Shown: positions 33,627-47,465 of the stretch, in pieces
Position numbering within the stretch: position 1 is the stretch's first letter
Layout: each line of letters starts with the position of its first letter
Assembly: GCF_014174255.1 (NCBI RefSeq)
Contig: NZ_JABEQJ010000031.1
Location: 1 to 55,936, forward strand
Length of the DNA stretch: 55,936 nt
Source: Gluconacetobacter sacchari
Lineage (GTDB): Bacteria > Pseudomonadota > Alphaproteobacteria > Acetobacterales > Acetobacteraceae
Reading direction: 5' to 3'
Notes under the pieces: generated by a model
What the model was told of the DNA's origin: nothing
Seen by the model: only the letters and a program-made list of their open reading frames with translations
The model's database searches: none
Translations under genes and position numbers: made by a program

Positions 33627-34412
33627 TCAGGTTCCCCTGCTCCCGGACGCCCCTGCGGCATCGCGGTCCAGCAGCAGGATCTCGCCGGTCGAAATCCGTC
33701 TCAGCCCCTCGGCACAGCGCAGCAGGAGCATCCCCTGCTCGTCCAGACCGACGAACGAACCTTCTACCTGCCCGCTTTCGCCGCGCACCACAAGCCTGGT
33801 ACCCGCAGGGTGGGCGCGCTCCAGCCATGCTGCCCTCAGCGATTCGAACCCGTCCGCGCGCCACACCGCCTGCCATCGATCCAGTTCGACGCAGATCGCA
33901 CGGGCCAGAATCTCAGGATCCGGGGCGGTGCCAAACGCGGCGACGCAGGCCAGGGTCCGCCCGGCAATCGACGGCGCGGCACGCAGGTTCGCCCCGAACC
34001 CGATGACCAGCCACCGCCCCCTGGCATCGTTCCCGCTCTCGATCAGGATGCCGGCGGTCTTGTCCCCCCCCAGCAGCAGGTCGTTGGGCCATTTCAGCCG
34101 CAACAGCGCCGGATCGCGAATCCAGGGCAGAATCGCCCCATGAAAGGCCAGCCCGGCCACGAACGGCCACAGCCCCACCGCGCCGTCCGCCTCGCCGGGG
34201 CGCAGCAGGACCGACAAGGCAAGATTGCCGCCAGGGTCCTGCCAGTCGCGCCCCCGGCTGCCCCGGCCCCCGGTCTGGCGCCGGGCCATGATCGCCAGTC
34301 CCGCCTCCGCCCCCTGCCCGGCCGCCGCGATGCAGCAGTCGGAGGTCGAGCCCAGTTCGTCATGAACGTCCAGACGCCAGGCGACAGCCCCCGGCGCCGA
34401 TCGTACCGTCAC
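33627..34412 (-). CDS. birA: Biotin--[acetyl-CoA-carboxylase] ligase
   Basis: The 261-residue enzyme makes biotinyl-AMP and attaches biotin to carboxyl carrier protein. Motifs are GRGSRGRDWQDPGGNLALSV (biotinyl-adenylate loop), LRLKWPNDLLLGGDKTAGIL and a C-terminal SH3-like cap domain with RGESGQVEGSFVGLD. The N-terminal helix-turn-helix is absent, so it is a monofunctional ligase, not a repressor. The GTG start at 34412 overlaps the nuoN stop by 4 bp (GTGA), so birA is the last gene of the nuo transcription unit. The in-frame extension upstream lies inside nuoN and is not coding. Confidence 0.92.
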   Translation of the reverse strand: MTVRSAPGAVAWRLDVHDELGSTSDCCIAAAGQGAEAGLAIMARRQTGGRGSRGRDWQDPGGNLALSVLLRPGEADGAVGLWPFVAGLAFHGAILPWIRDPALLRLKWPNDLLLGGDKTAGILIESGNDARGRWLVIGFGANLRAAPSIAGRTLACVAAFGTAPDPEILARAICVELDRWQAVWRADGFESLRAAWLERAHPAGTRLVVRGESGQVEGSFVGLDEQGMLLLRCAEGLRRISTGEILLLDRDAAGASGSRGT

Positions 34413-35833
34413 CTGAACAGGGCCTGCGCCGCGGCCTCGGCCGCCGTCGAAACCGGCCCCAGCACGATCAGGAACCCGGCGGTCGCGATCCCCATCCCGA
34501 CCGAGACGAAGGACAGCGACAGCGGCCGCCGATCCAGCGGCGCCGCCGCCTCGTCGAAGAACATCACCTTGATGACGCGCACATAATAATAGGCACCGAT
34601 CACGCTGCTGACGACACCGACCGCCGCCAGCCCGAACAGGTGCGCGTTCACCGCGGCATAGAACACCAGCATCTTGCCGAAGAACCCGGCCATCGGCGGC
34701 GCGCCGACCATGCTGAACATGAAGATCGCCATCGCGGTGGCCAGCCCTGGATCGGTGCGGTTCAATCCGGCCAGATCGGCGATCCGCGTCACCGCGCGCC
34801 CCTTGCGGCGCATGGCGATGATAACGGCGAAGACCCCGACATTCATCAGCAGATAGGTGGTCAGATAAACCAGCGTGCCGCGCATGCCCTCCTCGGTGCC
34901 GGCGGACAGGCCCATCAGCGCGTAGCCCATATGCCCGATCGACGAATAGGCCATCAGCCGCTTGATGTCGGTCTGCGGAATGGCCGCCAGCGACCCGAAC
35001 AGCATCGAGACGATCGCAATGGCCTCGATCAGGATCTGCCATTGCGGCGAAACATGGCCGAACGGCCCCGCCATCACCCGCAGCAACAGCGCGAAGGCCG
35101 CGATCTTCGGCGCCCCGGCCATGAAGGCCGTCACCGGGGTCGGCGCGCCCTGATAGACATCAGGCGTCCACATATGGAACGGCACCGCCGACAGCTTGAA
35201 GGTCAGGCCCGCCAGCATGAACACGATGCCGATCATCAACCCCATCGGCACGGCGGAGGTCGCACTCAGCGCGGTCCGGATGGCACCATATTCCATGGTG
35301 CCGGCAAATCCGTAGACCAGGGCCGAACCATAGAGCAGCAGTCCCGACGCCAACGATCCGAGCACGAAATATTTCAGCCCCGCCTCGGCCCCCCGCACAT
35401 CGTCCCGCGCGAAGGCGCAGAGGATGTAGATGGCCAGCGACGACAGTTCCAACCCGATGAACAGCGTCATCAGGTTGCCCGACGACGCCATCATCATGGT
35501 GCCAAGGGTCGAGAACAGCAGCAGGACCGGAAATTCGAACCGCTCGATCTTCATCTCCCGCGCATAGCCGACCGTCAGCACCGTCGTCAGCGCCCCGCCC
35601 GCCAGACTGAGGATCTTCATGAAGCGGGCGAAGCTGTCATTGATGAAGATGTGGTTGTAACCGATCCCGTCGGGCGACATCACGACCAGGAACGCGGTCA
35701 GGGCGAAGGCGCCGATGCTCAGCATGGAGCAGGAGAGAAAGGGCTGTTCCTTCTTCTGCACCACCCCGAAGACGAGGATCGCGAGGCCGCACAGCGCCAG
35801 GACGATTTCCGGCAGAGCAAGTGTCCAGTTCAT
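34409..35833 (-). CDS. nuoN: NADH-quinone oxidoreductase subunit N
   Basis: The 474-residue antiporter-like membrane subunit has about fourteen hydrophobic segments. NuoN-specific segments are present: the LSSLAIYILCAFARDD loop, VPFHMWTPDVYQGAPTPVTAF, IKRLMAYSSIGHMGYALMGL and FSMVGAPPMAGFFGKMLVF. It forms a proton channel between NuoK/J and the next antiporter-like subunit. The ATG at 35833 is the first that gives the family N-terminus (MNWTLALPEIVLALCG). It lies only 23 bp after the nuoL stop, the place where nuoM would normally be. Confidence 0.95.
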   Translation of the reverse strand: MNWTLALPEIVLALCGLAILVFGVVQKKEQPFLSCSMLSIGAFALTAFLVVMSPDGIGYNHIFINDSFARFMKILSLAGGALTTVLTVGYAREMKIERFEFPVLLLFSTLGTMMMASSGNLMTLFIGLELSSLAIYILCAFARDDVRGAEAGLKYFVLGSLASGLLLYGSALVYGFAGTMEYGAIRTALSATSAVPMGLMIGIVFMLAGLTFKLSAVPFHMWTPDVYQGAPTPVTAFMAGAPKIAAFALLLRVMAGPFGHVSPQWQILIEAIAIVSMLFGSLAAIPQTDIKRLMAYSSIGHMGYALMGLSAGTEEGMRGTLVYLTTYLLMNVGVFAVIIAMRRKGRAVTRIADLAGLNRTDPGLATAMAIFMFSMVGAPPMAGFFGKMLVFYAAVNAHLFGLAAVGVVSSVIGAYYYVRVIKVMFFDEAAAPLDRRPLSLSFVSVGMGIATAGFLIVLGPVSTAAEAAAQALFR

Positions 35834-35856
35834 CGGTTCAAACCCGTTCCCGGAGA

Positions 35857-37797
35857 TCAATGGAAGACCAGCAGGGTGGAGACGAGCACCACCAGGCCGA
35901 TCAGCATCGTGAAGGCATAGATCGCGATCGAACCGGTCTGGGTCCGCACCGCCTGGGCGGCGGTCCCCGCCGTCACCCGGGCCAGGCCGTGGGGAATCCC
36001 CTCGATCACCTCCTCGTCCACACCTTTCCACAGCAGGGTGGCGAGGGCGCGATACGGCCGGATGAACAGATGGTCGTACAGTTCGTCGAAATACCATTTG
36101 TTCAGCAGGAACAGATAGATCGGCCGCAGGCTGGCCGCCAGCGACACCGGGACGCCGGGGCTGGCCACATAGCACAGATAGGCCACCAGAATACCCAGCA
36201 CGCCAGCAACGGTCGGCACCAGCGCAATCAGTTCCGGCGTCTGTTCCAGCGTCGCGATGATGGTGTTGCCCGGCGCGTTCACGATCGCCCCGTTCCAGAA
36301 CGCTTCCTGGCCCGCGCCGATATAGTACGGCGCCAGCAGCAGGCCGGCCAGCACGGCGCCGATCCCCAGCAGCACCAGCGGCACCGTCATCCAGGCCGGG
36401 CTTTCATGCGCGCCCTCATGCAGGTGCGCCTCGCGCGGCGCGCCATGGAACACCAGGAAGATCAGCCGCCAGCTATACAGGGCGGTGATGAAGGCGGTGA
36501 CGCAGCCCAACGTCCAGCCATAGAAGCCCAGGCCGCTATGCGCCATCCACGTGGCTTCCAGGATCGCATCCTTGGACCAGTAGCCGGCGAAGGGGAAGAT
36601 GCCGGCCAGGGCCAGGCTGCCCACCCACATCGCGCCATAGGTCAGCGGAATCTTCTTCCACAACCCGCCCATGCGGAACATGTCCTGCTCGTCATGCACG
36701 GCATGGATGACCGAACCCGCGCCCAGGAACAGCAGCGCCTTGAAGAAGGCATGCGTCGTCAGATGGAAGACCGATGCCTGATACGCCCCGGCCCCCACCG
36801 CCATGAACATGTAGCCAAGCTGCGAACAGGTGGAATAGGCGATCGTGCGCTTGATATCCGGCTGCACCAGCCCGACCGTGGCGGCGAAGAAGCAGGTCGT
36901 CGCCCCAATGAACAGGATGAAGGCCTTGGTATCGGGGGCGAACTCCACCAGCGGCGACATCCGCGCCATCAGGAACACCCCGGCCGTCACCATGGTCGCC
37001 GCATGGATCAGGGCCGAGACCGGCGTCGGGCCCTCCATCGCGTCCGGCAGCCAGGTGTGCAGGAAAAGCTGCGCCGACTTGCCCATCGCGCCGATAAACA
37101 GCAGCAGGCAGATCGTCTCATAGATCCGGTGCGTGCCGAACAGCGTATAGGTATCGTCGCCATGCGCGGGCACCAGCGCGAAGATATTGTCGTAGGTGAC
37201 CGAGCCGAATTCGACGAACAGCAGCGCGATCCCGACCATGAAGAACAGATCGGCCACGCGATTGACCACGAAGGCCTTGATCGCGGCGGCACAGGCGCTG
37301 GGCCGGTCGTACCAGTAGCCGATCAGCAGATAGCTGGCCAGGCCCACGCCCTCCCAGCCGAAGAAGAGCTGGATCAGGTCGTTCGACGTCACCAGCATCA
37401 GCATGGCGAAGGTGAACAGCGAGAGATACGAGAAGAACCGATAGGTCGGGATCGTCTCGTGCCCCATGTAGCCGACGCTGTAGACATGCACGAGGGCCGA
37501 GACCAGCGTCACCATGGCGACCATGGACAATGACAGCGTATCCAGCCGCAGCGTCCAGGCGGCATGGAAGCTGCCGGCGCGGATCCAGTCCGCCAGTTGC
37601 ACCACGACCGGCATGCCGCCGGCATGCATCGCCGTAACCAGCGCGCCACCGGCGCACAGGGCTGCGATGAGCATGACGGAAGTGGTCAGCGCCTTGGCCG
37701 GCCCGTCGCCCATCACCCGCCCGAACAGCCCCGCCACCACGCAGGCGAACAGGGGGCCGAGGACCGCGATCTCGAAAAGGATGGATGCCGTCTGCAT
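35857..37797 (-). CDS. nuoL: NADH-quinone oxidoreductase subunit L
   Basis: The 646-residue protein is the distal antiporter-like subunit of complex I. Signatures include NDLIQLFFGWEGVGLASYLL, the lysine-containing AIKAFVVNRVADLFFMVG, HTWLPDAMEGPTPVSALIHA, IKRTIAYSTCSQLGYMFMA and THAFFKALLFLGAGSVIHA. The long C-terminal lateral helix region and final membrane segment (IYAFTMLIGLVVLVSTLLVF) are intact. The gene is thus full length rather than a nuoL-nuoM fusion or a truncated copy. It follows nuoK by 7 bp. Confidence 0.96.
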   Translation of the reverse strand: MQTASILFEIAVLGPLFACVVAGLFGRVMGDGPAKALTTSVMLIAALCAGGALVTAMHAGGMPVVVQLADWIRAGSFHAAWTLRLDTLSLSMVAMVTLVSALVHVYSVGYMGHETIPTYRFFSYLSLFTFAMLMLVTSNDLIQLFFGWEGVGLASYLLIGYWYDRPSACAAAIKAFVVNRVADLFFMVGIALLFVEFGSVTYDNIFALVPAHGDDTYTLFGTHRIYETICLLLFIGAMGKSAQLFLHTWLPDAMEGPTPVSALIHAATMVTAGVFLMARMSPLVEFAPDTKAFILFIGATTCFFAATVGLVQPDIKRTIAYSTCSQLGYMFMAVGAGAYQASVFHLTTHAFFKALLFLGAGSVIHAVHDEQDMFRMGGLWKKIPLTYGAMWVGSLALAGIFPFAGYWSKDAILEATWMAHSGLGFYGWTLGCVTAFITALYSWRLIFLVFHGAPREAHLHEGAHESPAWMTVPLVLLGIGAVLAGLLLAPYYIGAGQEAFWNGAIVNAPGNTIIATLEQTPELIALVPTVAGVLGILVAYLCYVASPGVPVSLAASLRPIYLFLLNKWYFDELYDHLFIRPYRALATLLWKGVDEEVIEGIPHGLARVTAGTAAQAVRTQTGSIAIYAFTMLIGLVVLVSTLLVFH

Positions 37798-37804
37798 GGC
37801 CCGC

Positions 37805-38128
37805 TCAGCCCTTCATCATGGTGACGTCGTCGACCTCGATCGACCCGCGATTGCGGAAATAGACCGTCACGATCGCCAGCCCGATAGCGGATTCCGCCGC
37901 CGCGATAGTCAGGACGAACAGGGTGAAGACCTGCCCGGACAGATCGCCGAGTGCCGAGGAAAACGCGACGAAATTCAAATTCGCCGACAGCAGGATCAGC
38001 TCGATCGACATCAGGATGATGATGACGTTCTTGCGGTTCAGAAAGATGCCGAACACGCCCAGAACCAGCAGGATGGCGCTGACCGTCAGATAAGGCCCGA
38101 TGCCGATGCTTCCCAGTCCGCCGGTCAT
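37805..38128 (-). CDS. nuoK: NADH-quinone oxidoreductase subunit K
   Basis: The 107-residue protein has three membrane segments and the NuoK/MrpC pattern: [20 protein letters not shown], then [20 protein letters not shown] with the conserved membrane Glu, and [20 protein letters not shown] with the second. These glutamates form part of the proton pathway. It overlaps nuoJ by 4 bp and sits directly before nuoL. Confidence 0.96.
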
Positions 38129-38889
38129 TGCGCCAGCCCTCCATGATTGTCGGCGCCGTGCCCGCCCCGCTGGGTCTCATGGGCCGGAGTGGCCTGGGGC
38201 ACGGGCTCGGCCGTCACCCCGTACGATCCGGGCACCGACGCGATGTAGTAGGAACGTTCCGGCCGGCGGAAACCGCCATTGGCCGTCACCCCCTGCCCCA
38301 GCGGCACGGTCATCATGGCCAGCGTATCCGCCGCGGTGCGCTCGTGCTGCCGCTCGATATTCTGCCTGCGCCCCATCGGCCGTTCGCGCAGCGTCAGCAC
38401 GATGGCGCCGATCATCGCGACCAGCAGCACAAGGCCGCACGATTCGAACAGGAAGACGTAGTGCGTGTACAGCACGTCACCCAGGGCGGCCGTATTGGTC
38501 CGGCCCGGCGCCGCCACCACATGCGGCACGGAGGCGATGTCCTGCGCCACCCGCCAGTGGCTGAAGGCCAGCGCCAGTTCCGCCAGCAGCACCAGCCCCA
38601 CGGCCGCGCCAAAGGGGGCGTAGCGCTGCAATCCCTCGCGCATCTGCGCGAAGCGGACATCGAGCATCATCACCACGAACAGGAACAGCACCGCGACGGC
38701 GCCGACATAGACGATGACCAGGATCATCGCCAGGAACTCGGCGCCCGCGACCAGGAACAGACCCGCCGCATTGAAGAAGGCCAGGATCAGGAACAGCACG
38801 GAGTGAACGGGATTCCGCGCGCTGACCACCATTCCGGCCGACAGGATCAGCACCGTCGCGAACACGTAGAAGACGATTTGGGTCATCAT
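38125..38889 (-). CDS. nuoJ: NADH-quinone oxidoreductase subunit J, with long hydrophilic tail
   Basis: The first 170 or so residues are a typical five-helix Nuo[41 protein letters not shown] and a helix near [17 protein letters not shown]. The remaining 80 residues are hydrophilic and rich in His, Gly and Gln, ending [18 protein letters not shown]; this makes the protein longer than the usual 200 or so. The tail is on the cytoplasmic or periplasmic end, depending on topology, and has no recognised function. The gene overlaps nuoK by 4 bp. Confidence 0.94.
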
Positions 38890-38949: not shown

Positions 38950-39438
38950 TCAGCGATAGGGCGCATCGAGTTCCAGCCGCCGCGCCAGGACGCTTTCCCA
39001 GCGGTCGCCGTTGGCGAGCAGCTTGTCCTTGTTGTACATGAGTTCTTCCCGCGTCTCGGTCGCGAACTCGTAATTCGGCCCCTCGACGATCGCGTCGACC
39101 GGGCAGGCTTCCTCACACAGCCCGCAATAGATGCATTTCGTCATGTCGATGTCGTAGCGCGTGGTGCGCCGCGACCCGTCATCGCGCGGTTCGGATTCGA
39201 TGGTGATCGCCTCCGCCGGGCAGGCCGCCTCGCACAGCTTGCAGGCAATGCAGCGCTCCTCGCCGTTCGGATAGCGGCGCAGCGCATGCTCGCCACGAAA
39301 ACGCGGCGACAGCGGTCCCTTCTCGTAGGGATAGTTGATCGTCACCTTGGGCTTGAAGAAAGCCCGCAGCGTCGCCCCCATGCCGGCCACCAGTTCGGCC
39401 AGCAGAAAGGAACGGACCGTTCGGTCGAGAGTGCCCAT
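38950..39438 (-). CDS. nuoI: NADH-quinone oxidoreductase subunit I
   Basis: The 162-residue ferredoxin-like subunit binds clusters N6a and N6b. Two 4Fe-4S motifs are seen, [12 protein letters not shown] (Cys 63, 66, 69, 73) and [12 protein letters not shown] (Cys 102, 105, 108, 112). It relays electrons from NuoG to NuoB. The ATG shares one base with the nuoH stop (TGATG). The open frame extends upstream inside nuoH but that part has no similarity and is not coding. Confidence 0.96.
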
Positions 39439-40463
39439 CAGCTCGCTCCTCCCTGGGGCAGCAGCCCGGTCGCCATCAGGAAACCCGCCGTCAGCACCAT
39501 CCACACCAGCGAGAGCGGGAGGAACACTTTCCACCCCAGCCGCATCAACTGGTCGTAGCGGTAACGCGGGAACGTCGCGCGCACCCAGATGAAGACGAAC
39601 AGGCAGAACAGGATTTTCGCGATCAGCCACAGCGGCCCCGGTATCCAGGTAAAGGGCGCGATCCCGATCGGCGGCAGCCAGCCACCGAGGAACAGGATGC
39701 TGACCATTCCCGACATCAGGAACATGTTGGCATATTCGCCGAGGAAGAAGAGGCCGAAGGCAAGCGCCGAATACTCGACGAAAAAGCCGGCCACCAGCTC
39801 GCTCTCGCCCTCGGGCAGATCGAACGGCGCGCGATTGGTTTCCGCCAGCGCCGAGATGAAGAAGATGATGAACATCGGGAACATCGGCAGGCAGAACCAC
39901 ACATGGCGCTGCGCCAGCACGATATCGTTGAGGTTCAGGCTCCCCACCGCCAGCAGCACCGACACGATCACCAGGCCGATCGACACCTCGTACGACACCA
40001 TCTGCGCCGCCGCGCGCAGCCCGCCGAGAAAGGCGTATTTCGAATTGGACGCCCAGCCCGCGATCAGCACGCCATAGACCCCCAGCGAGGAAATGGCGAG
40101 CAGGTACAGCACCCCGACATTGATATCGGCCACCGCCCACCCGTCATTGGTGGGAATGACCGCCCAGGCGGTCATGGCCAGCGAGAAGGTCAGGAACGGC
40201 GCAAACAGGAACAGGAAGCGATTGGCCCCCGACGGGATCACGGTTTCCTTGGTCATCATCTTGATCGCGTCGGCGAAGGCCTGCAACACGCCGAACGGGC
40301 CATTGACGTTCGGCCCCTTGCGAAGCTGCATCGCCGCCATGACCTTGCGTTCGGCCAGCGTCAGATAGGCCACGCCCAGCAGAAGCGGCACCAGGACGGC
40401 CAGCGCCTCGAGGACCGTCAGGATCACCTGGCCGATCAATGTGTGCAGAAAGAAATGCGCCAC
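39438..40463 (-). CDS. nuoH: NADH-quinone oxidoreductase subunit H
   Basis: The 341-residue, eight-helix subunit forms much of the quinone chamber. Typical segments are [25 protein letters not shown] near residues 36-60, [44 protein letters not shown] with the conserved loop glutamates, and [22 protein letters not shown]. It lies between nuoG and nuoI with minimal spacing. Length is normal. Confidence 0.97.
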
Positions 40464-40469
40464 GTCGCC

Positions 40470-42536
40470 TTACTCCGCCGCCACGGTCCGGGGATGGACA
40501 TAGATCCGCGAACACTCGCCCATCGTCGGGCTGGCCCGGCAGATCGGATCCGTCTGATAATAATCGTCGAAGACCGGGCGGAACGGCACCGGCGACACCG
40601 CGCCGACCCCCACCGGCCCCGGCAGCGCCGACACGTCCACCTCGTCCAGCCCGCCGATCACCCGGAAGACCGGATTGACCGTGGCCAGCCGCTCGCGCAG
40701 CGCCTCCATGGTGTCATAGGGCAGCGTATGCCCCACGACCTCGGAAAACGCCCGCAGGATGCGCCAATCCTCACGCGCGTCGCCGGGCGGCATGACCGCC
40801 TGGAACGACCGCTGGACCCGCCCCTCGGTATTCACATACGTTCCCGATTTCTCGGCATAGCTCGCGCCGGGCAGGATCACATCCGCCCGTGCCGCCGCCG
40901 CGTCGCCGTGATGGCCCTGGTAGATGACGAAGGTCTCGGGCCCGATCTGCGCGGTATGGAACTCGTCCGCCCCCAGCAGCCACAGCACCTCGACACCGCC
41001 GCTCATCATCCCGGCGGCGCTGCGCCCGCCCTTGCCGGGCACCAGCCCCAGATCCAGTCCGGCGACCCTGCTGGCCGCGCGATGCAGGACATTGAAGCCG
41101 TTCCATCCGGCACCCACCGCCCCCGTTTCGGCCGCCAGCGCCCAGGCAGCGGCCAGGATGGCCCGCGCATCCGACCGCGTCAGCGCGCCATGCCCGACGA
41201 TGATCATCGGCTTCTTCGCCGTCTTCAGAACCTCGGCGAAGGGATGCGTGCCATCCCGCAGCGCGGCCAGCACCTCCGGCCCCTCGCCCAGCACGTCCGC
41301 CTTGTAGGTCGGGTCGGCCGTCGGCGCGCCGACAAGCCCGACCGGAAAGCCGCCCCTTCCCGCCGAGAGGAAGCGCTTGCGGATGCGCGCGTTCAGCACC
41401 GGCGCCTCCTGGCGCGGGATCGACCCCACGACCAGCAGCGCATCGGCCTCCTCGATCCCGGCGATGGTGGTGCCGAAGGTATAATAGGCCCGGTGCGACA
41501 GATCATACTCCGCGCCATCCTGCCGGCAGTCGATATTGGGCGACCCCAGCGCCGTCATCAGGTCCTTCAGCGCGAGCATGCTCTCGGCGTCGCACAGATC
41601 GCCGGCAATGGCGCCGATCCGCTCACCCGCCACGCCCTCCAGCCGCCGGCCGATCGCCACGAACGCGTCCTGCCACGAGACCGGATGCAGCTTGCCATGC
41701 ACCCGCACCCAGGGCCGATCCAGCCGGCGATGCTTCAACCCGTCGACCGAAAACCGCCCCTTGTCGGCCAGCCATTCCTCGTTCACCGCGTCATTGACCC
41801 GGGGCACCGACCGCAGCACGGCGGTGCCGCGCACATGCAGGCTGATATTGGTCCCTACCGCATCGCTGACATCGATCGAATCCGTCCGCTTCAATTCCCA
41901 CGGCCGCGCGGTAAAGGCATAGGGTTTGGAGGTCAGGGCGCCCACCGGGCAGATATCGATCAGGTTGCCCGACAGTTCGGATGTCAGCGCCTTCTCGACG
42001 TAATTGGTCACTTCCATGTTCTCGCCGCGCGAGACCGCACCCAGTTCGGGCACGCCCGCGATCTCGGTCGCAAAGCGGATGCAGCGCGTACACTGGATAC
42101 ACCGCGTCATCACGGTCTTGACCAGCGGGCCGAGATATTTATCCGTCACCGCGCGCTTGGCTTCGTGATAACGCGAATGATCGGCGCCATAGCCGAACGC
42201 CTGGTCCTGTAGATCGCACTCGCCACCCTGGTCGCAGATCGGGCAGTCCAGCGGATGGTTGATCAGCAGGAATTCCATCACCGCCCGCCGCGCCTTGCGC
42301 ACGATCTCGGTGTCGGTCAGGATCTCCATCCCTTCCCCGACCGGAAAGCCGCAGGACGCCACCGGCTTCGGCGCCCGCACCACCTGCACCAGGCACATGC
42401 GGCAATTGCCCGCGACCGACAGGCGCTCATGGAAACAGAAGCGCGGAATTTCCTTGCCGGCCGCCTCGCACGCCTGGAGCGCGCTGGACCCGTTGGGAAC
42501 GTCCACGACGATCCCGTCGACGGTTACCTTCACCAT
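40470..42536 (-). CDS. nuoG: NADH-quinone oxidoreductase subunit G
   Basis: The 688-residue subunit carries the electron chain of the peripheral arm. The 2Fe-2S ligands are Cys34, 45, 48 and 62; the His-ligated 4Fe-4S cluster uses His94 with Cys98, 101 and 107 (NHPLDCPICDQGGECDLQ); the next cluster uses Cys146, 149, 152 and 196 (CIQCTRCIRF and DICPVGA). The C-terminal molybdopterin-oxidoreductase-like domain is present, without the extra cysteine motif seen in some NuoG proteins. The ATG at 42536 lies 5 bp after the nuoF stop; the longer frame is spurious. Confidence 0.96.
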   Translation of the reverse strand: MVKVTVDGIVVDVPNGSSALQACEAAGKEIPRFCFHERLSVAGNCRMCLVQVVRAPKPVASCGFPVGEGMEILTDTEIVRKARRAVMEFLLINHPLDCPICDQGGECDLQDQAFGYGADHSRYHEAKRAVTDKYLGPLVKTVMTRCIQCTRCIRFATEIAGVPELGAVSRGENMEVTNYVEKALTSELSGNLIDICPVGALTSKPYAFTARPWELKRTDSIDVSDAVGTNISLHVRGTAVLRSVPRVNDAVNEEWLADKGRFSVDGLKHRRLDRPWVRVHGKLHPVSWQDAFVAIGRRLEGVAGERIGAIAGDLCDAESMLALKDLMTALGSPNIDCRQDGAEYDLSHRAYYTFGTTIAGIEEADALLVVGSIPRQEAPVLNARIRKRFLSAGRGGFPVGLVGAPTADPTYKADVLGEGPEVLAALRDGTHPFAEVLKTAKKPMIIVGHGALTRSDARAILAAAWALAAETGAVGAGWNGFNVLHRAASRVAGLDLGLVPGKGGRSAAGMMSGGVEVLWLLGADEFHTAQIGPETFVIYQGHHGDAAAARADVILPGASYAEKSGTYVNTEGRVQRSFQAVMPPGDAREDWRILRAFSEVVGHTLPYDTMEALRERLATVNPVFRVIGGLDEVDVSALPGPVGVGAVSPVPFRPVFDDYYQTDPICRASPTMGECSRIYVHPRTVAAE

Positions 42537-42541
42537 CGCCC

Positions 42542-43867
42542 TTACTCCGCCGCCACAGGAATGCCGAGCGGCACCTGCGTGATCCGCCCCACGCCGTGGG
42601 CCGCCTTGTAGGACGCGATCCGCTCCTCCATCACCGGACGGAAATGCCGGATCAGCCCCTGGATCGGCCACGCCGCCGCGTCGCCCAGCGCGCAGATCGT
42701 GTGGCCTTCGACCTGGCGCGTCACCTGTTCGAGCATGTCGATTTCCTCGATTTCCGCCCGACCCTCGACCATCCGGTTCATGACCCGCATCATCCAGCCG
42801 GTGCCCTCGCGGCACGGCGTACACTGGCCGCAGCTCTCATGCTTGAAGAATTGCGAGAACCGGGCGATCGCCCGGATGATGTCGGTCGATTTGTCCATCA
42901 CGATCATGCAGCCGGTGCCCAGGCCCGAGCGCTCGGCGCGCAGGCTGTCGTAATCCATCAGCACCGTCTCGCACACCGACGCCGGCAGCACCGGCACCGA
43001 GCAGCCGCCGGGGATCACCGCCAGCAGATTGTCCCAGCCGCCGCGGACCCCGCCGCCATGCGTCTCGATGATCTCCTTCAGCGGCACGCCCAGCTCTTCC
43101 TCGAACACGCAGGGCGTGTTCACATGGCCCGAAATGGCCATCAGCTTGGAGCCGGCATTGTTCGGCCGCCCAAGCGCCGAGAACCACGAGGCTCCGCGCC
43201 GCAGGATGGTGGACGAAACCGCGATGCTCTCGACATTGTTGACCGTCGTCGGGCAGCCATACAGCCCCATCGCCGCCGGAAAGGGCGGCTTCATGCGCGG
43301 CTGCCCCTTCTTGCCCTCCAGGCTCTCCAGCAGCGCGGTTTCCTCGCCGCAGATATAGGCCCCGGCGCCGCGATGAATGTAGAAATCGAAATCCCAGCCC
43401 GATCCGGCGGCATTCCTGCCGATCAGCCCGGCCGCATAGGCCTCGTCGATCGCGATCTGAAGATGCCGCGCCTCGTTGAAGAACTCGCCGCGGATATAGA
43501 TATAGGCCGCATGCGCCCCCATCGCGAAGGACGCGATCAACGCGCTTTCGATCAGCTTGTGCGGCTCGTGCCGCAGGATTTCACGATCCTTGCAGGTCCC
43601 CGGCTCGGATTCGTCGCCATTGATGACCAGATAATGCGGGCGCCCGTCCGAATTCTTGGGCATGAACGACCATTTGACCCCGGTCGGAAAACCCGCCCCT
43701 CCCCGGCCGCGCAGGCCGGACCCCTTCATCTCGTTGACGATGGCGTCGCGCCCGCGCGCCAAAATCTCGGCGGTGCCGTCCCAGTCGCCGCGCTGGCGCG
43801 CCCCGGCCAGCCGCCAGTCATGCTGACCGTACAGATTGGTGAAGATCCGGTCCTTATCCTGCAACAT
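42542..43867 (-). CDS. nuoF: NADH-quinone oxidoreductase subunit F
   Basis: The 441-residue subunit binds NADH, FMN and a 4Fe-4S cluster. The FMN/NADH glycine motif is [13 protein letters not shown] (51-63), with [15 protein letters not shown] and [15 protein letters not shown] also conserved. The cluster ligands are Cys346, 349 and 352 ([13 protein letters not shown]) and Cys392 ([11 protein letters not shown]). GGGGGAGAG precedes the ATG. It lies between nuoE and nuoG. Confidence 0.97.
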
Positions 43868-43881
43868 GCCGTCTCTCCCCC

Positions 43882-44520
43882 TCAGCCCTGCTTCGCTGGA
43901 CTGTCCGCCAGCGTCCTGCGCCCACCTTCCGGCGCCGAATTCAGCCGGTCGATCGTCGGTCCCGGCACCGGGCGCTCGCCGCGCCGCAGCGCCTCGATCA
44001 GTTCGATCGTGCGCGGCCCGTCCAGATCCTCGTAGAAATCGTCATCGACCTGTAGGATGGGCGCATTGGCGCAGCCCCCCAGACACTCGACCTCGGTCAA
44101 GGTAAACAACCCGTCGGCGCTCGACTGGCCGAACCCCGAAATCCCGGTCGCCTTCTTGCACGCCGCGACCACCTCGTCCGAGCCACGCAGCCAGCACGAA
44201 GTCGTGGTGCAGACCTGAAGATGATACCGCCCGATCGGCTTGGTATTGAACATCAGGTAGAAGGTCGCCACCTCGTAGACACGGATCGGCGCAACCTCCA
44301 GCCGGCGCGCCACCTCGTCCATCGCCACGCGCGGCACCCAGGCGCTGCCGGTCTGCCGGCCCATCTGCTTCTGCACCACATACAGCAGCGGCAGCGTGCC
44401 GCTCGCCTTACGCTCGGGCGGATATTTGGCCAGGATCGCCGCGATCTGCTCTTCGCTCTCGGCATCGAAGGCGAAGCCGTCGGGCTGTTCGATCTGGTCG
44501 ATGGGGGAATGAGCGGACAT
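43882..44520 (-). CDS. nuoE: NADH-quinone oxidoreductase subunit E
   Basis: The 212-residue thioredoxin-fold subunit binds the off-path 2Fe-2S cluster through Cys104, Cys109, Cys146 and Cys150 ([11 protein letters not shown] and [10 protein letters not shown]). The helical N-terminal part with [16 protein letters not shown] is typical. It pairs with NuoF in the NADH-oxidising tip. The ATG at 44520 follows the nuoD stop by 5 bp. The C-terminal 40 residues are a polar extension common in alphaproteobacterial NuoE. Confidence 0.96.
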
Positions 44521-44525
44521 CTCTG

Positions 44526-45776
44526 TCACCTGTCTATCTCGCCGAACACCAGGTCCAGCGACCCGATGATGGCAACCGCGTCGGCCAGCATGTGGCGGCG
44601 CGACATCTCGTCGATCGCCTGGAGATGGGCGAAGCCGGTGGGCCTGATCTTGCACCGGTAGGGCCGATTGCTGCCATCCGCGACCAGATAGACCCCGAAT
44701 TCGCCCTTGGGGCTTTCGACCGCCGTATAGGTCGCCCCCGGCGGCACGTGATAGCCTTCGGTGAACAGCTTGAAATGATGGATCAGCGCTTCCATCGAGC
44801 GTTTCATCTCCCGGCGCGGCGGCGGGGTGATCTTGTGGTCCTGCACCTTGACCGGCCCCGGCCTGATCTGCGCCAGGCACTGCTCGACGATCTTCACGCT
44901 CTCGCGCATCTCCGCCACACGCACCAGATAGCGGTCGTAGCAATCGCCCTGGCGCGTGACGGGAATGTTGAACGTCACCTTGTCGTAATTGTCATACGGT
45001 TGCGCGCGGCGCAGGTCCCACGGCACGCCCGACGCCCGCAGGCAGGGCCCGCTGAACCCCCAGGCCAGCGCCTGCTCGGTGGTGAACACGCCGATCCCCA
45101 CCGTTCGCTGCTTCCAGATCCGGTTGTTGGTCAGCAGCGTTTCCAGATCGTCGATCCAGCGCGGGAAGTCCCGCGCCCACTCCGCGATCCGCTCCTCCAG
45201 GCCCGCCGGCATGTCACGCGCAACCCCACCCGGGCGGAAATAATTGGCATGGAAGCGCGCGCCCGACGCCGCCTCGTAGAATTCGATCAGCTTCTCGCGC
45301 TCTTCATACCCCCACAGCGCCGGGGTCAGCGCGCCGCAATCCAGCCCGAACGAGGTCAGGTTCAGGATATGGTTCAGGATGCGCGTCATTTCGGCGAACA
45401 TCACGCGAATCCACTTCGCGCGGTCCGGGGCCTCGATCCCCAGCAGCTTTTCCGTCGCCAGCGCGAAGGCCTGCTCCTCGCACATCGGCGAGACGTAATC
45501 GAGCCGATCGAAATACGGCAGCGCCTTCGGATAGGTCTTGTATTCGATCAGCTTTTCGGTGCCGCGATGCAGCAGCCCGATATGCGGAATGGCGCGGGCG
45601 ACGACCTCGCCCTCCATCTCCAGCACCAGCCGCAGCACACCGTGGGCCGAAGGATGCTGGGGGCCGAAATTCAGAGCGTGGGAATCGATCTCCACCGTCC
45701 GGATCTCGGCTTCGGCGGCCGCGCCCTCGGACAGCAGCGCCTCGGGAATATCCTCGTGAAGGACAATCTCGCTCAT
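44526..45776 (-). CDS. nuoD: NADH-quinone oxidoreductase subunit D
   Basis: The 416-residue subunit, related to the large subunit of NiFe hydrogenases, forms the quinone site with NuoB. Diagnostic segments are [60 protein letters not shown] and the C-terminal [22 protein letters not shown]. NuoC and NuoD are separate genes, unlike the fused NuoCD of enterobacteria. A 52 bp gap separates it from nuoC. Confidence 0.97.
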
Positions 45777-45828: not shown

Positions 45829-46494
45829 TCATCGCGGCAGCTTCAGCCCCTGGCGGGATTCATGCGCCTTCTCGTCGCCCGGCAGGGTCAGGATGCCCTC
45901 CCACGGCGATTCGAAATCGAAATTACGGAAATCCTGCGTCAGTTTGACCGGTTCATAGACCACCTGGCGCCGATCCTCGTCGTATCGCATCTCGACATAG
46001 CCGGTCAGCGGAAAATCCTTGCGCAACGGATGCCCCTCGAACCCGTAATCGGTCAGGATGCGGCGCAGATCCGGCTGGCCCGAGAACAGGACGCCGAACA
46101 GGTCATAGCATTCGCGTTCCCACCATGTGGCGCACGGCCATAAATGATGGACCGACGGCACCGGATTGGTCTCGTCCGTCGTCACGATCACGCGGATCCG
46201 GTGATTATGCGTCACCGAAAGCAGGTTATAGACGACCTCGAACCGCTCGGCCCGCGCCGGATAATCGACGCCGCACAGATCCATCAACTGCTCGCAGGCA
46301 TAACGCGGATCGTCGCGCAACAGGCTCATCAGCGCCAGCAGCCGGTCGCGGCTGGTCCGCACCACCAGTTCGCCCCCCTCGATCGCGGCCGCGTGGATCC
46401 CCGGCACGCCGGTCGACAGCGCAAAGGCCAGGGCCCCCAGCGCGCCGCGCGCCAGAGACACCTGCATCGTCAGTTCGGCACCCGGTTCAGCCAC
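45829..46494 (-). CDS. nuoC: NADH-quinone oxidoreductase subunit C
   Basis: The 221-residue hydrophilic subunit of the quinone module shows the signature [21 protein letters not shown], followed by [20 protein letters not shown] and the C-terminal [16 protein letters not shown]. The GTG start at 46494 overlaps the nuoB stop by 8 bp and follows AGGGACG; an ATG at 46467 is an alternative, and the longest frame, which starts at 46545 inside nuoB, is rejected. The N-terminal region is variable in the family, so the start is less certain than the gene. Confidence 0.93.
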
Positions 46495-47062
46495 GGAGAA
46501 TCGTCCCTGTTCTGCGGATCTTCTTCTGCAATTGCAGGATGCCATAGATCAGCGCCTCGGCCGTCGGCGGGCAACCGGGGACATAGACATCCACCGGCAC
46601 GATCCGGTCGCATCCACGCACGACGGAATAGGAATAATGGTAATAGCCCCCGCCATTGGCGCAGGACCCCATAGAGATCACCCAGCGCGGCTCGGCCATC
46701 TGGTCATAGACCCGGCGCAGGGCCGGCGCCATCTTGTTGGTCAGCGTGCCCGCCACGATCATCACATCCGACTGGCGCGGCGAGCCACGCGGAATGATCC
46801 CCATCCGGTCCAGATCATAGCGCGGCATATAGGCGTGGATCATTTCCACCGCGCAGCAGGCCAGCCCGAAGGACATCGGCCACAGGCTGCCCGTGCGGCC
46901 CCAATTGACCAGCTTGTCGAGATTGGCGACGACGAACCCCTTCTCGGTGATCTCGCCGGTAATCCCCTTGATGACGGCATCCTGTTCCGGCCCCGGGGGC
47001 AGCATTTCGCGGTTCCAGGCGATCGCGCCCTGCCCGTCCCCTGTCGCATCAGCTTTGTTCAT
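46487..47062 (-). CDS. nuoB: NADH-quinone oxidoreductase subunit B
   Basis: The 191-residue subunit binds the terminal cluster N2 through the tandem pair Cys69-Cys70 ([11 protein letters not shown]), Cys134 (MGSCANGGG) and Cys164 ([10 protein letters not shown]). It donates electrons to quinone. GGGAGGGAAC lies upstream of the ATG at 47062. It follows nuoA by 37 bp. Confidence 0.97.
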
Positions 47063-47099
47063 GCCTCTGTTCCCTCCCGTAGCCCGGCCCCGGTGCCGC

Positions 47100-47465
47100 T
47101 CAATCCCAGTCCAGCGCGCCCTTGCACCATTCATAGATGAACCCGACCGTCAATATGCCCAGGAACCCCATCATCGACAGAAAGCCGAACAGGCCGATTC
47201 GCGACAGGCTGACCGCCCACGGAAAAAGAAAGGCGACTTCGAGGTCGAAGATGATGAACAGGATCGCCACCAGATAGAACCGGACATCGAACCGATGCCG
47301 CGCATCGTCGAACGCCTCGAACCCGCATTCATAGGCCGAGACCTTCTCGGCATAGGGCTTCTGATGGCCGCAGAGCAGGGAGCTTCCCAGCATCGCGCCG
47401 GCGATGACGACCGCCAGCACACCGAAGACGAGAACGGGGAAATAATTTGCGAGCACCGGCTGCAT
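47100..47465 (-). CDS. nuoA: NADH-quinone oxidoreductase subunit A
   Basis: The 121-residue, three-helix membrane subunit begins the nuo operon. The conserved loop [20 protein letters not shown] and the helix [20 protein letters not shown] are characteristic; the loop cysteine is the one exposed in the active/deactive transition of mitochondrial ND3. About 280 bp of non-coding DNA separates it from the upstream tRNA-Asp gene and should hold the operon promoter, but I could not define its boxes with confidence. Confidence 0.97.

Follow-up and report, generated by a model that had tools for sequence, protein, structure and literature searches.

A stand-alone nuoM gene accompanies the nuoM-less complex I operon of Gluconacetobacter sacchari and its relatives

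The DNA considered here, a stretch of 55,936 nucleotides hereafter called the window, is contig C31 of the 4.83-Mb genome of Gluconacetobacter sacchari, assembled in 114 contigs. Its minus strand carries a complex I operon that reads nuoA-B-C-D-E-F-G-H-I-J-K-L-N. The operon begins with nuoA (47100..47465; PF00507, 131.6 bits), followed by nuoB (46487..47134; NF005012) and nuoC (45829..46545; NF004733), both with uncertain starts, nuoD (44526..45776; NF004739), nuoE (43882..44529), nuoF (42542..43867; NF010120), nuoG (40470..42533; TIGR01973), nuoH (39438..40463; NF004745), nuoI (38950..39438; NF004539), nuoJ (open reading frame 38125..38889, scanned over 38125-38751; NF005164) and nuoK (37805..38128; NF004323). 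For nuoE the assignment comes from the subfamily model TIGR01958 (156.4 bits, cut-off 142.4) and from PF01257, the equivalog models scoring below their cut-offs. The last two genes are nuoL (35857..37797, 646 aa; NF005141, 783.9 bits, cut-off 556; TIGR01974, 783.7 bits, cut-off 407.5) and nuoN (34409..35833, 474 aa; NF004440, 608.2 bits, cut-off 519). A longer open reading frame at 34409-36175 consists of nuoN with a spurious upstream extension. Every gene from A to L, as well as N, matches its family in profile scans and has an intact frame. The sequence-only reading had found no space for nuoM between nuoL and nuoN, and this was confirmed: the two intact genes, both above curated NCBIfam cut-offs, are separated by 23 bp (35834..35856, minus strand), running from the nuoL stop codon to the nuoN ATG. 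This is the slot occupied by nuoM in other Acetobacteraceae and in other alphaproteobacteria. The order nuoL-nuoM-nuoN was present in 44 of the 45 operonic loci fetched, a set in which L168 stops short of nuoN and some other loci are truncated by contig ends.

The proposal that nuoM is lacking holds for the operon but not for the genome. A genome-wide profile search located PF00361 proteins at seven places, namely two in the window (nuoL and nuoN), three on contig C11, one on contig C1 and a weak match on contig C32, and the TIGR01972 cut-off was passed at two of these only, on C1 (547.8 bits) and by the C11 nuoM (512.4 bits). The C1 gene (G000:C1:156706-158214) starts with GTG, has an intact frame and encodes a protein of 502 aa, P0001, that scores 593 with NF004499, the equivalog model for alpha-type NuoM (cut-off 585), and has subunit M of entry 8qby as its best solved relative. 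It is the single NuoM of the alphaproteobacterial type in the genome, so that loss of nuoM from the genome can be discarded, and relocation, one of the options originally listed, is what was found. The gene follows ileS-lspA-DUF3035-mutL on the same strand, 134 bp behind mutL. This gap contains one weak terminator-like hairpin (1 found versus 0.2 expected), and no sigma-70-like promoter was found in 401 bp around it. A protein first labelled RibF in the survey of nuoM neighbourhoods is an acireductone synthase according to NCBIfam. The C11 gene belongs to a second, distinct complex I cluster that spans nuoG through nuoN and includes a nuoM of its own, placed between L and N (L009; G000:C11:75000-94900); it is also found in the other members of the genus with matches. 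The C11 NuoM was rejected as a substitute for the missing subunit, since its gene sits between the L and N of that cluster and its identity to the relocated protein is only about 39%. In two other genomes the match to the second-cluster nuoM runs through one TGA (G004:C1:802927-804405 and G012:C3:2549582-2551060). The C32 protein (L010:4276-6021, 581 aa) is a weak antiporter-like relative that reaches 44.1 bits with hydrogenase 4 subunit B, far below the cut-off.

The separation of nuoM from the operon is widespread among relatives. In a survey of 60 relatives, a NuoM match was found in 13 of the 14 genomes of the genus, always away from nuoL-nuoN; the fourteenth (G013) is an assembly of 1310 contigs with 87% completeness. 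Within this genus, which by kinship is that of Gluconacetobacter, the nuoM coordinates of G004 agree with those of G. diazotrophicus PA1 5 (NC_011365). The 22 other genomes of the family comprised three with the split (G014, G022 and G026), 15 with an alpha-type nuoM adjacent to nuoN, two with a gamma-like set alone, also adjacent (G021 and G035), one with NuoM only and one with neither. Across 299 genomes of the family, all 40 whose NuoM shares at least 62% identity with P0001 had nuoN apart, on a different contig in 27 cases and, in the other 13, at a distance of at least 188 kb along one contig. NuoM and NuoN were jointly present in 243 of the 299 genomes and jointly absent from 49 (292 of 299 concordant); two had NuoM only and five NuoN only, and none of these seven belongs to the 40. 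In a named collection, the DNA fetched around 70 of 80 nuoM loci, which reached at most 8 kb to each side and less in several cases, contained neither nuoL nor nuoN; these loci included Gluconacetobacter, Komagataeibacter, Novacetimonas, Acetobacter, Commensalibacter and Lichenicoccus. Same-strand upstream genes were mutL in 59 of the 70 and ileS in 56. The 11 loci with mutL missing from the fetched DNA were one metagenome-assembled genome (L131) and ten Acetobacter loci (L093-L097, L099, L114, L115, L128 and L130). In these ten nuoM lies beside neither mutL nor nuoL/nuoN, which points to a second move, of nuoM or of its neighbours.

An alignment of 17 relocated NuoM proteins, two stand-alone (solo) proteins from genus g124, three other solo paralogues and 44 sequences from operons or outgroups revealed both strict conservation and strong divergence. 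The window genome's protein has the glutamate of TM5, the lysines of TM7 and TM8, the exit-path histidine and the glutamate of TM12. Seven channel residues, matched by motif, were checked (E144, K223, H230, K254, H311, H337 and E396), and all are invariant in 17/17 relocated, 2/2 g124 solo and 44/44 operonic or outgroup sequences. H230 and H337 also count as channel residues. The channel roles were otherwise taken from E144, K234, K265, H322 and E407 of E. coli NuoM, as given in the available part of PMC9271201. The 44 operonic and outgroup sequences have 200 conserved columns. The relocated group keeps 113 of these and loses 42 (agreement below 10%); a different residue is fixed at 19, of which eight fall between positions 218 and 253. 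Residue 237, the histidine of the WLPDAH motif in all 44 operonic and outgroup sequences, is tyrosine in 17/17 relocated proteins (L008 being that of the window genome), 2/2 g124 solos and 3/3 other solo paralogues, which reads as a parallel change in stand-alone copies. The distance from related family members minus half the within-group spread was 0.77 for NuoM as compared with 0.22 for NuoG, 0.20 for NuoH, 0.38 for NuoL and 0.37 for NuoN (L154 and L161 excluded). Within the group, the dN/dS values of nuoM in three comparisons (0.059, 0.183 and 0.239) resemble those of nuoN (0.078-0.237) and indicate similar purifying selection on the two genes. Three of four solo proteins scanned fall below the NF004499 cut-off of 585 (515.2; 484.9, with a fragment as query; 584.5), and all pass TIGR01972. 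The other solo paralogue (L160, L162, L164 and L157, from G269, G138, G194 and G024, respectively) is a second, independent stand-alone NuoM whose copies form a separate clade (100/100) next to operonic relatives. Since its TM8 lysine is replaced by asparagine in the three aligned copies (L157, L160 and L164), this paralogue may be unable to pump.

Phylogenetic analyses bear on the origin of the relocated gene. In both NuoM trees (64 and 66 rows, the second with ten rows of the first dropped), the relocated proteins group with the g124 solo NuoM (100/100), and a very long stem leads to this clade. Genus g124 is probably Granulibacter; its three genomes, single chromosomes of 2.69-2.74 Mb, all contain the solo type in addition to an ordinary operonic nuoM. 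A clade uniting the solo and operonic proteins of g124 was rejected (p-AU 0.0001). This combination, one clade with the g124 solo while g124 retains its operonic nuoM, suggests that a diverged second copy, once present beside the operonic nuoM as is still the case in g124, displaced the operonic copy in the ancestor of the acetic acid bacteria. We lean slightly towards this explanation. The second copy would have diverged alongside the operonic one, which would then have been lost in that ancestor. In the NuoG-H-L-N tree, the acetic acid bacteria had closer relatives than g124, so that a displacing second copy would require extra losses or one transfer. That tree was built without L200, L203, L206, L207 and L208, which have no full NuoG, and the g124 NuoL in it (L152, L154 and L156) is a three-residue extract that carries no weight.

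Alternatively, the operonic nuoM itself may have changed place: in the ancestor of the acetic acid bacteria it would have settled behind mutL, evolving fast thereafter, and g124 would have acquired a copy later by transfer. Placing the solos where the NuoG-H-L-N tree puts their genomes, beside L194 (93/98 in that tree), was not rejected for NuoM (p-AU 0.464), and the mutL-nuoM linkage is also present in the early-branching G014 (L173), both of which agree with a simple move. The double state in all three g124 genomes speaks against it, as do a NuoM stem much longer than those of the neighbouring subunits and the position of the g124 solo outside, not within, the other solos. The latter sister relationship received only 79/85 and 87/84 in two analyses, neither being starred. 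A simple move is a real but less probable contender. A further alternative, displacement by a nuoM from an alphaproteobacterium outside the family, appears improbable. Although solos branching outside the family's operonic clade were not rejected by the AU test (p 0.433), the free tree, rooted on 17 outgroup rows, unites the whole family, solos included, in one clade (100/99) and places the solos beside 18 operonic rows of the family (90/80). In addition, among 385 sampled genomes of the class (cut-off 1e-150), no donor outside the family was found, the best relative besides the solo type being at most 56% identical. A warning about long branches joining was also issued by the tree program. 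We prefer displacement by a second copy, followed by simple relocation and then by a foreign donor; these weights are shares of the question of origin and are separate from our confidence in the relocated NuoM as a working subunit. Put in more detail, a fast-diverged second NuoM would have arisen or arrived, coexisted with the operonic NuoM and finally taken its place; changes would have accumulated in a burst around TM7-TM8, all checked channel residues remaining fixed, a scenario that we regard as evenly balanced between true and false. If it is true, one complex I in g124 could take either of two NuoM subunits.

As to function, we are confident that the C1 gene encodes a relocated, working NuoM of an ordinary alphaproteobacterial (mitochondrial-type) complex I, encoded at a separate locus. 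The genome has a full set of 14 Nuo subunit genes of one type, A to L and N in the window and nuoM on C1, and the window enzyme would most likely be an ordinary 14-subunit complex I. NuoM would be produced in trans and then inserted into the membrane, where it would occupy its normal position between NuoN and NuoL. The complex would then have its 14 subunits as well as the usual paths for protons. Protein levels in Acetobacter pasteurianus are compatible with this. In the available part of PMC10742644, the values for NuoM (fig_HN.1610) are 0.62, 0.33, 2.16 and 1.78, and the operon proteins NuoB-NuoN (fig_HN.3342-3354) shift in the same direction, except for NuoN in the first column (0.93). The number fig_HN.1610, far from those of NuoB-N, points to the relocated gene. 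According to a title cited in the accessible text of PMC12361115 (Oppermann 2022), complex I assembly in E. coli does not depend essentially on the order of the nuo genes.

A complex I that lacks NuoM, with a shortened membrane arm and another role for the relocated protein, is very unlikely by comparison with such a working NuoM. The loss of 42 of 200 conserved columns from the relocated protein would fit this idea, but the retained channel residues, the purifying selection, the co-occurrence with nuoN and the parallel protein levels all run counter to it. The window NuoL is of ordinary length, 646 aa, as compared with 638-652 aa in nearly all relatives and 676 in one (fragments and three failed extractions excluded). 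The shortened or rewired membrane arm originally envisaged accordingly finds no support, nor does a decayed operon, given the intact frames and the nuoM dN/dS of 0.06 to 0.24 in three comparisons; the enzyme lacking NuoM, as first proposed, is explained away. That a segment was lost in assembly or by deletion at 35834-35856 is next to impossible, since the split is common to the whole clade: a missing gene taken alone and the 114-contig assembly would allow it, but the tight nuoL-nuoN junction recurs in 24 of 24 genomes examined, with a gap of 23-26 bp in all 14 of the genus, the present one included, and of -1 to 46 bp in all ten further split-nuoM genomes (the nuoN start of L180 being inferred); the 24 include one-contig assemblies such as G011, G026 and G208.

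Surveys based on operons would record acetic acid bacteria as devoid of NuoM; one recent survey, according to the accessible text of PMC12361115, clusters matches no more than 250 bp apart. The clade amounts to a natural experiment in which complex I has had its central proton-pumping subunit exchanged, the 19 differently fixed positions of NuoM are candidates for the fitting of subunits to each other, and genus g124 offers two NuoM side by side in one genome.

Comparison with published systems indicates which parts are already known. Two nuo operons were reported in Gluconacetobacter diazotrophicus and one in Granulibacter bethesdensis in the available part of PMC4596401, where the tree was built on nuoHIJKLN, nuoM not being included. 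The C11 cluster, with nuoM between L and N, resembles the second cluster of G. diazotrophicus and appears to be its counterpart. The G. diazotrophicus operon with nuoCD for which nuoM is listed in the accessible portion of PMC9368920 is probably that second cluster as well. In strain 386B, nuoA-nuoN was called complete without nuoM being named in the text available from PMC3751514, and the portion of PMC4013037 at hand contains nothing on nuo. The 2M complex I (Chadwick 2018, as cited in the available part of PMC6606698) is similar to the state of g124 in that two alpha-type NuoM occur in one genome, but the second nuoM of g124 lies outside the cluster; the g124 NuoL match spans 649 codons. 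A 2M enzyme was rejected for the window genome, which has a cluster without any nuoM, one alpha-type nuoM elsewhere and a NuoL that is not lengthened. In the literature searched, as far as its accessible text goes, no discussion of the clade-wide split, the NuoM divergence or the double state was found, and there was one explicit listing of the split. This is the available part of PMC5158111 on A. pasteurianus, in which nuoM (APT_00690) is listed apart from the operon (APT_01737-01725), so that a separate nuoM in this species is already in print; that text gives locus tags only and leaves split, spread and divergence undiscussed. The A. pasteurianus complex I shows the same split as the present one, its nuoM (L112) likewise lying behind mutL. 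With the canonical alphaproteobacterial or mitochondrial-type complex I (NDH-1, nuoA-N), finally, the window genome shares the 14 subunit genes, the order A to L and N and the channel residues of NuoM, while differing in a nuoM that lies outside the operon and encodes a protein on its own long branch.
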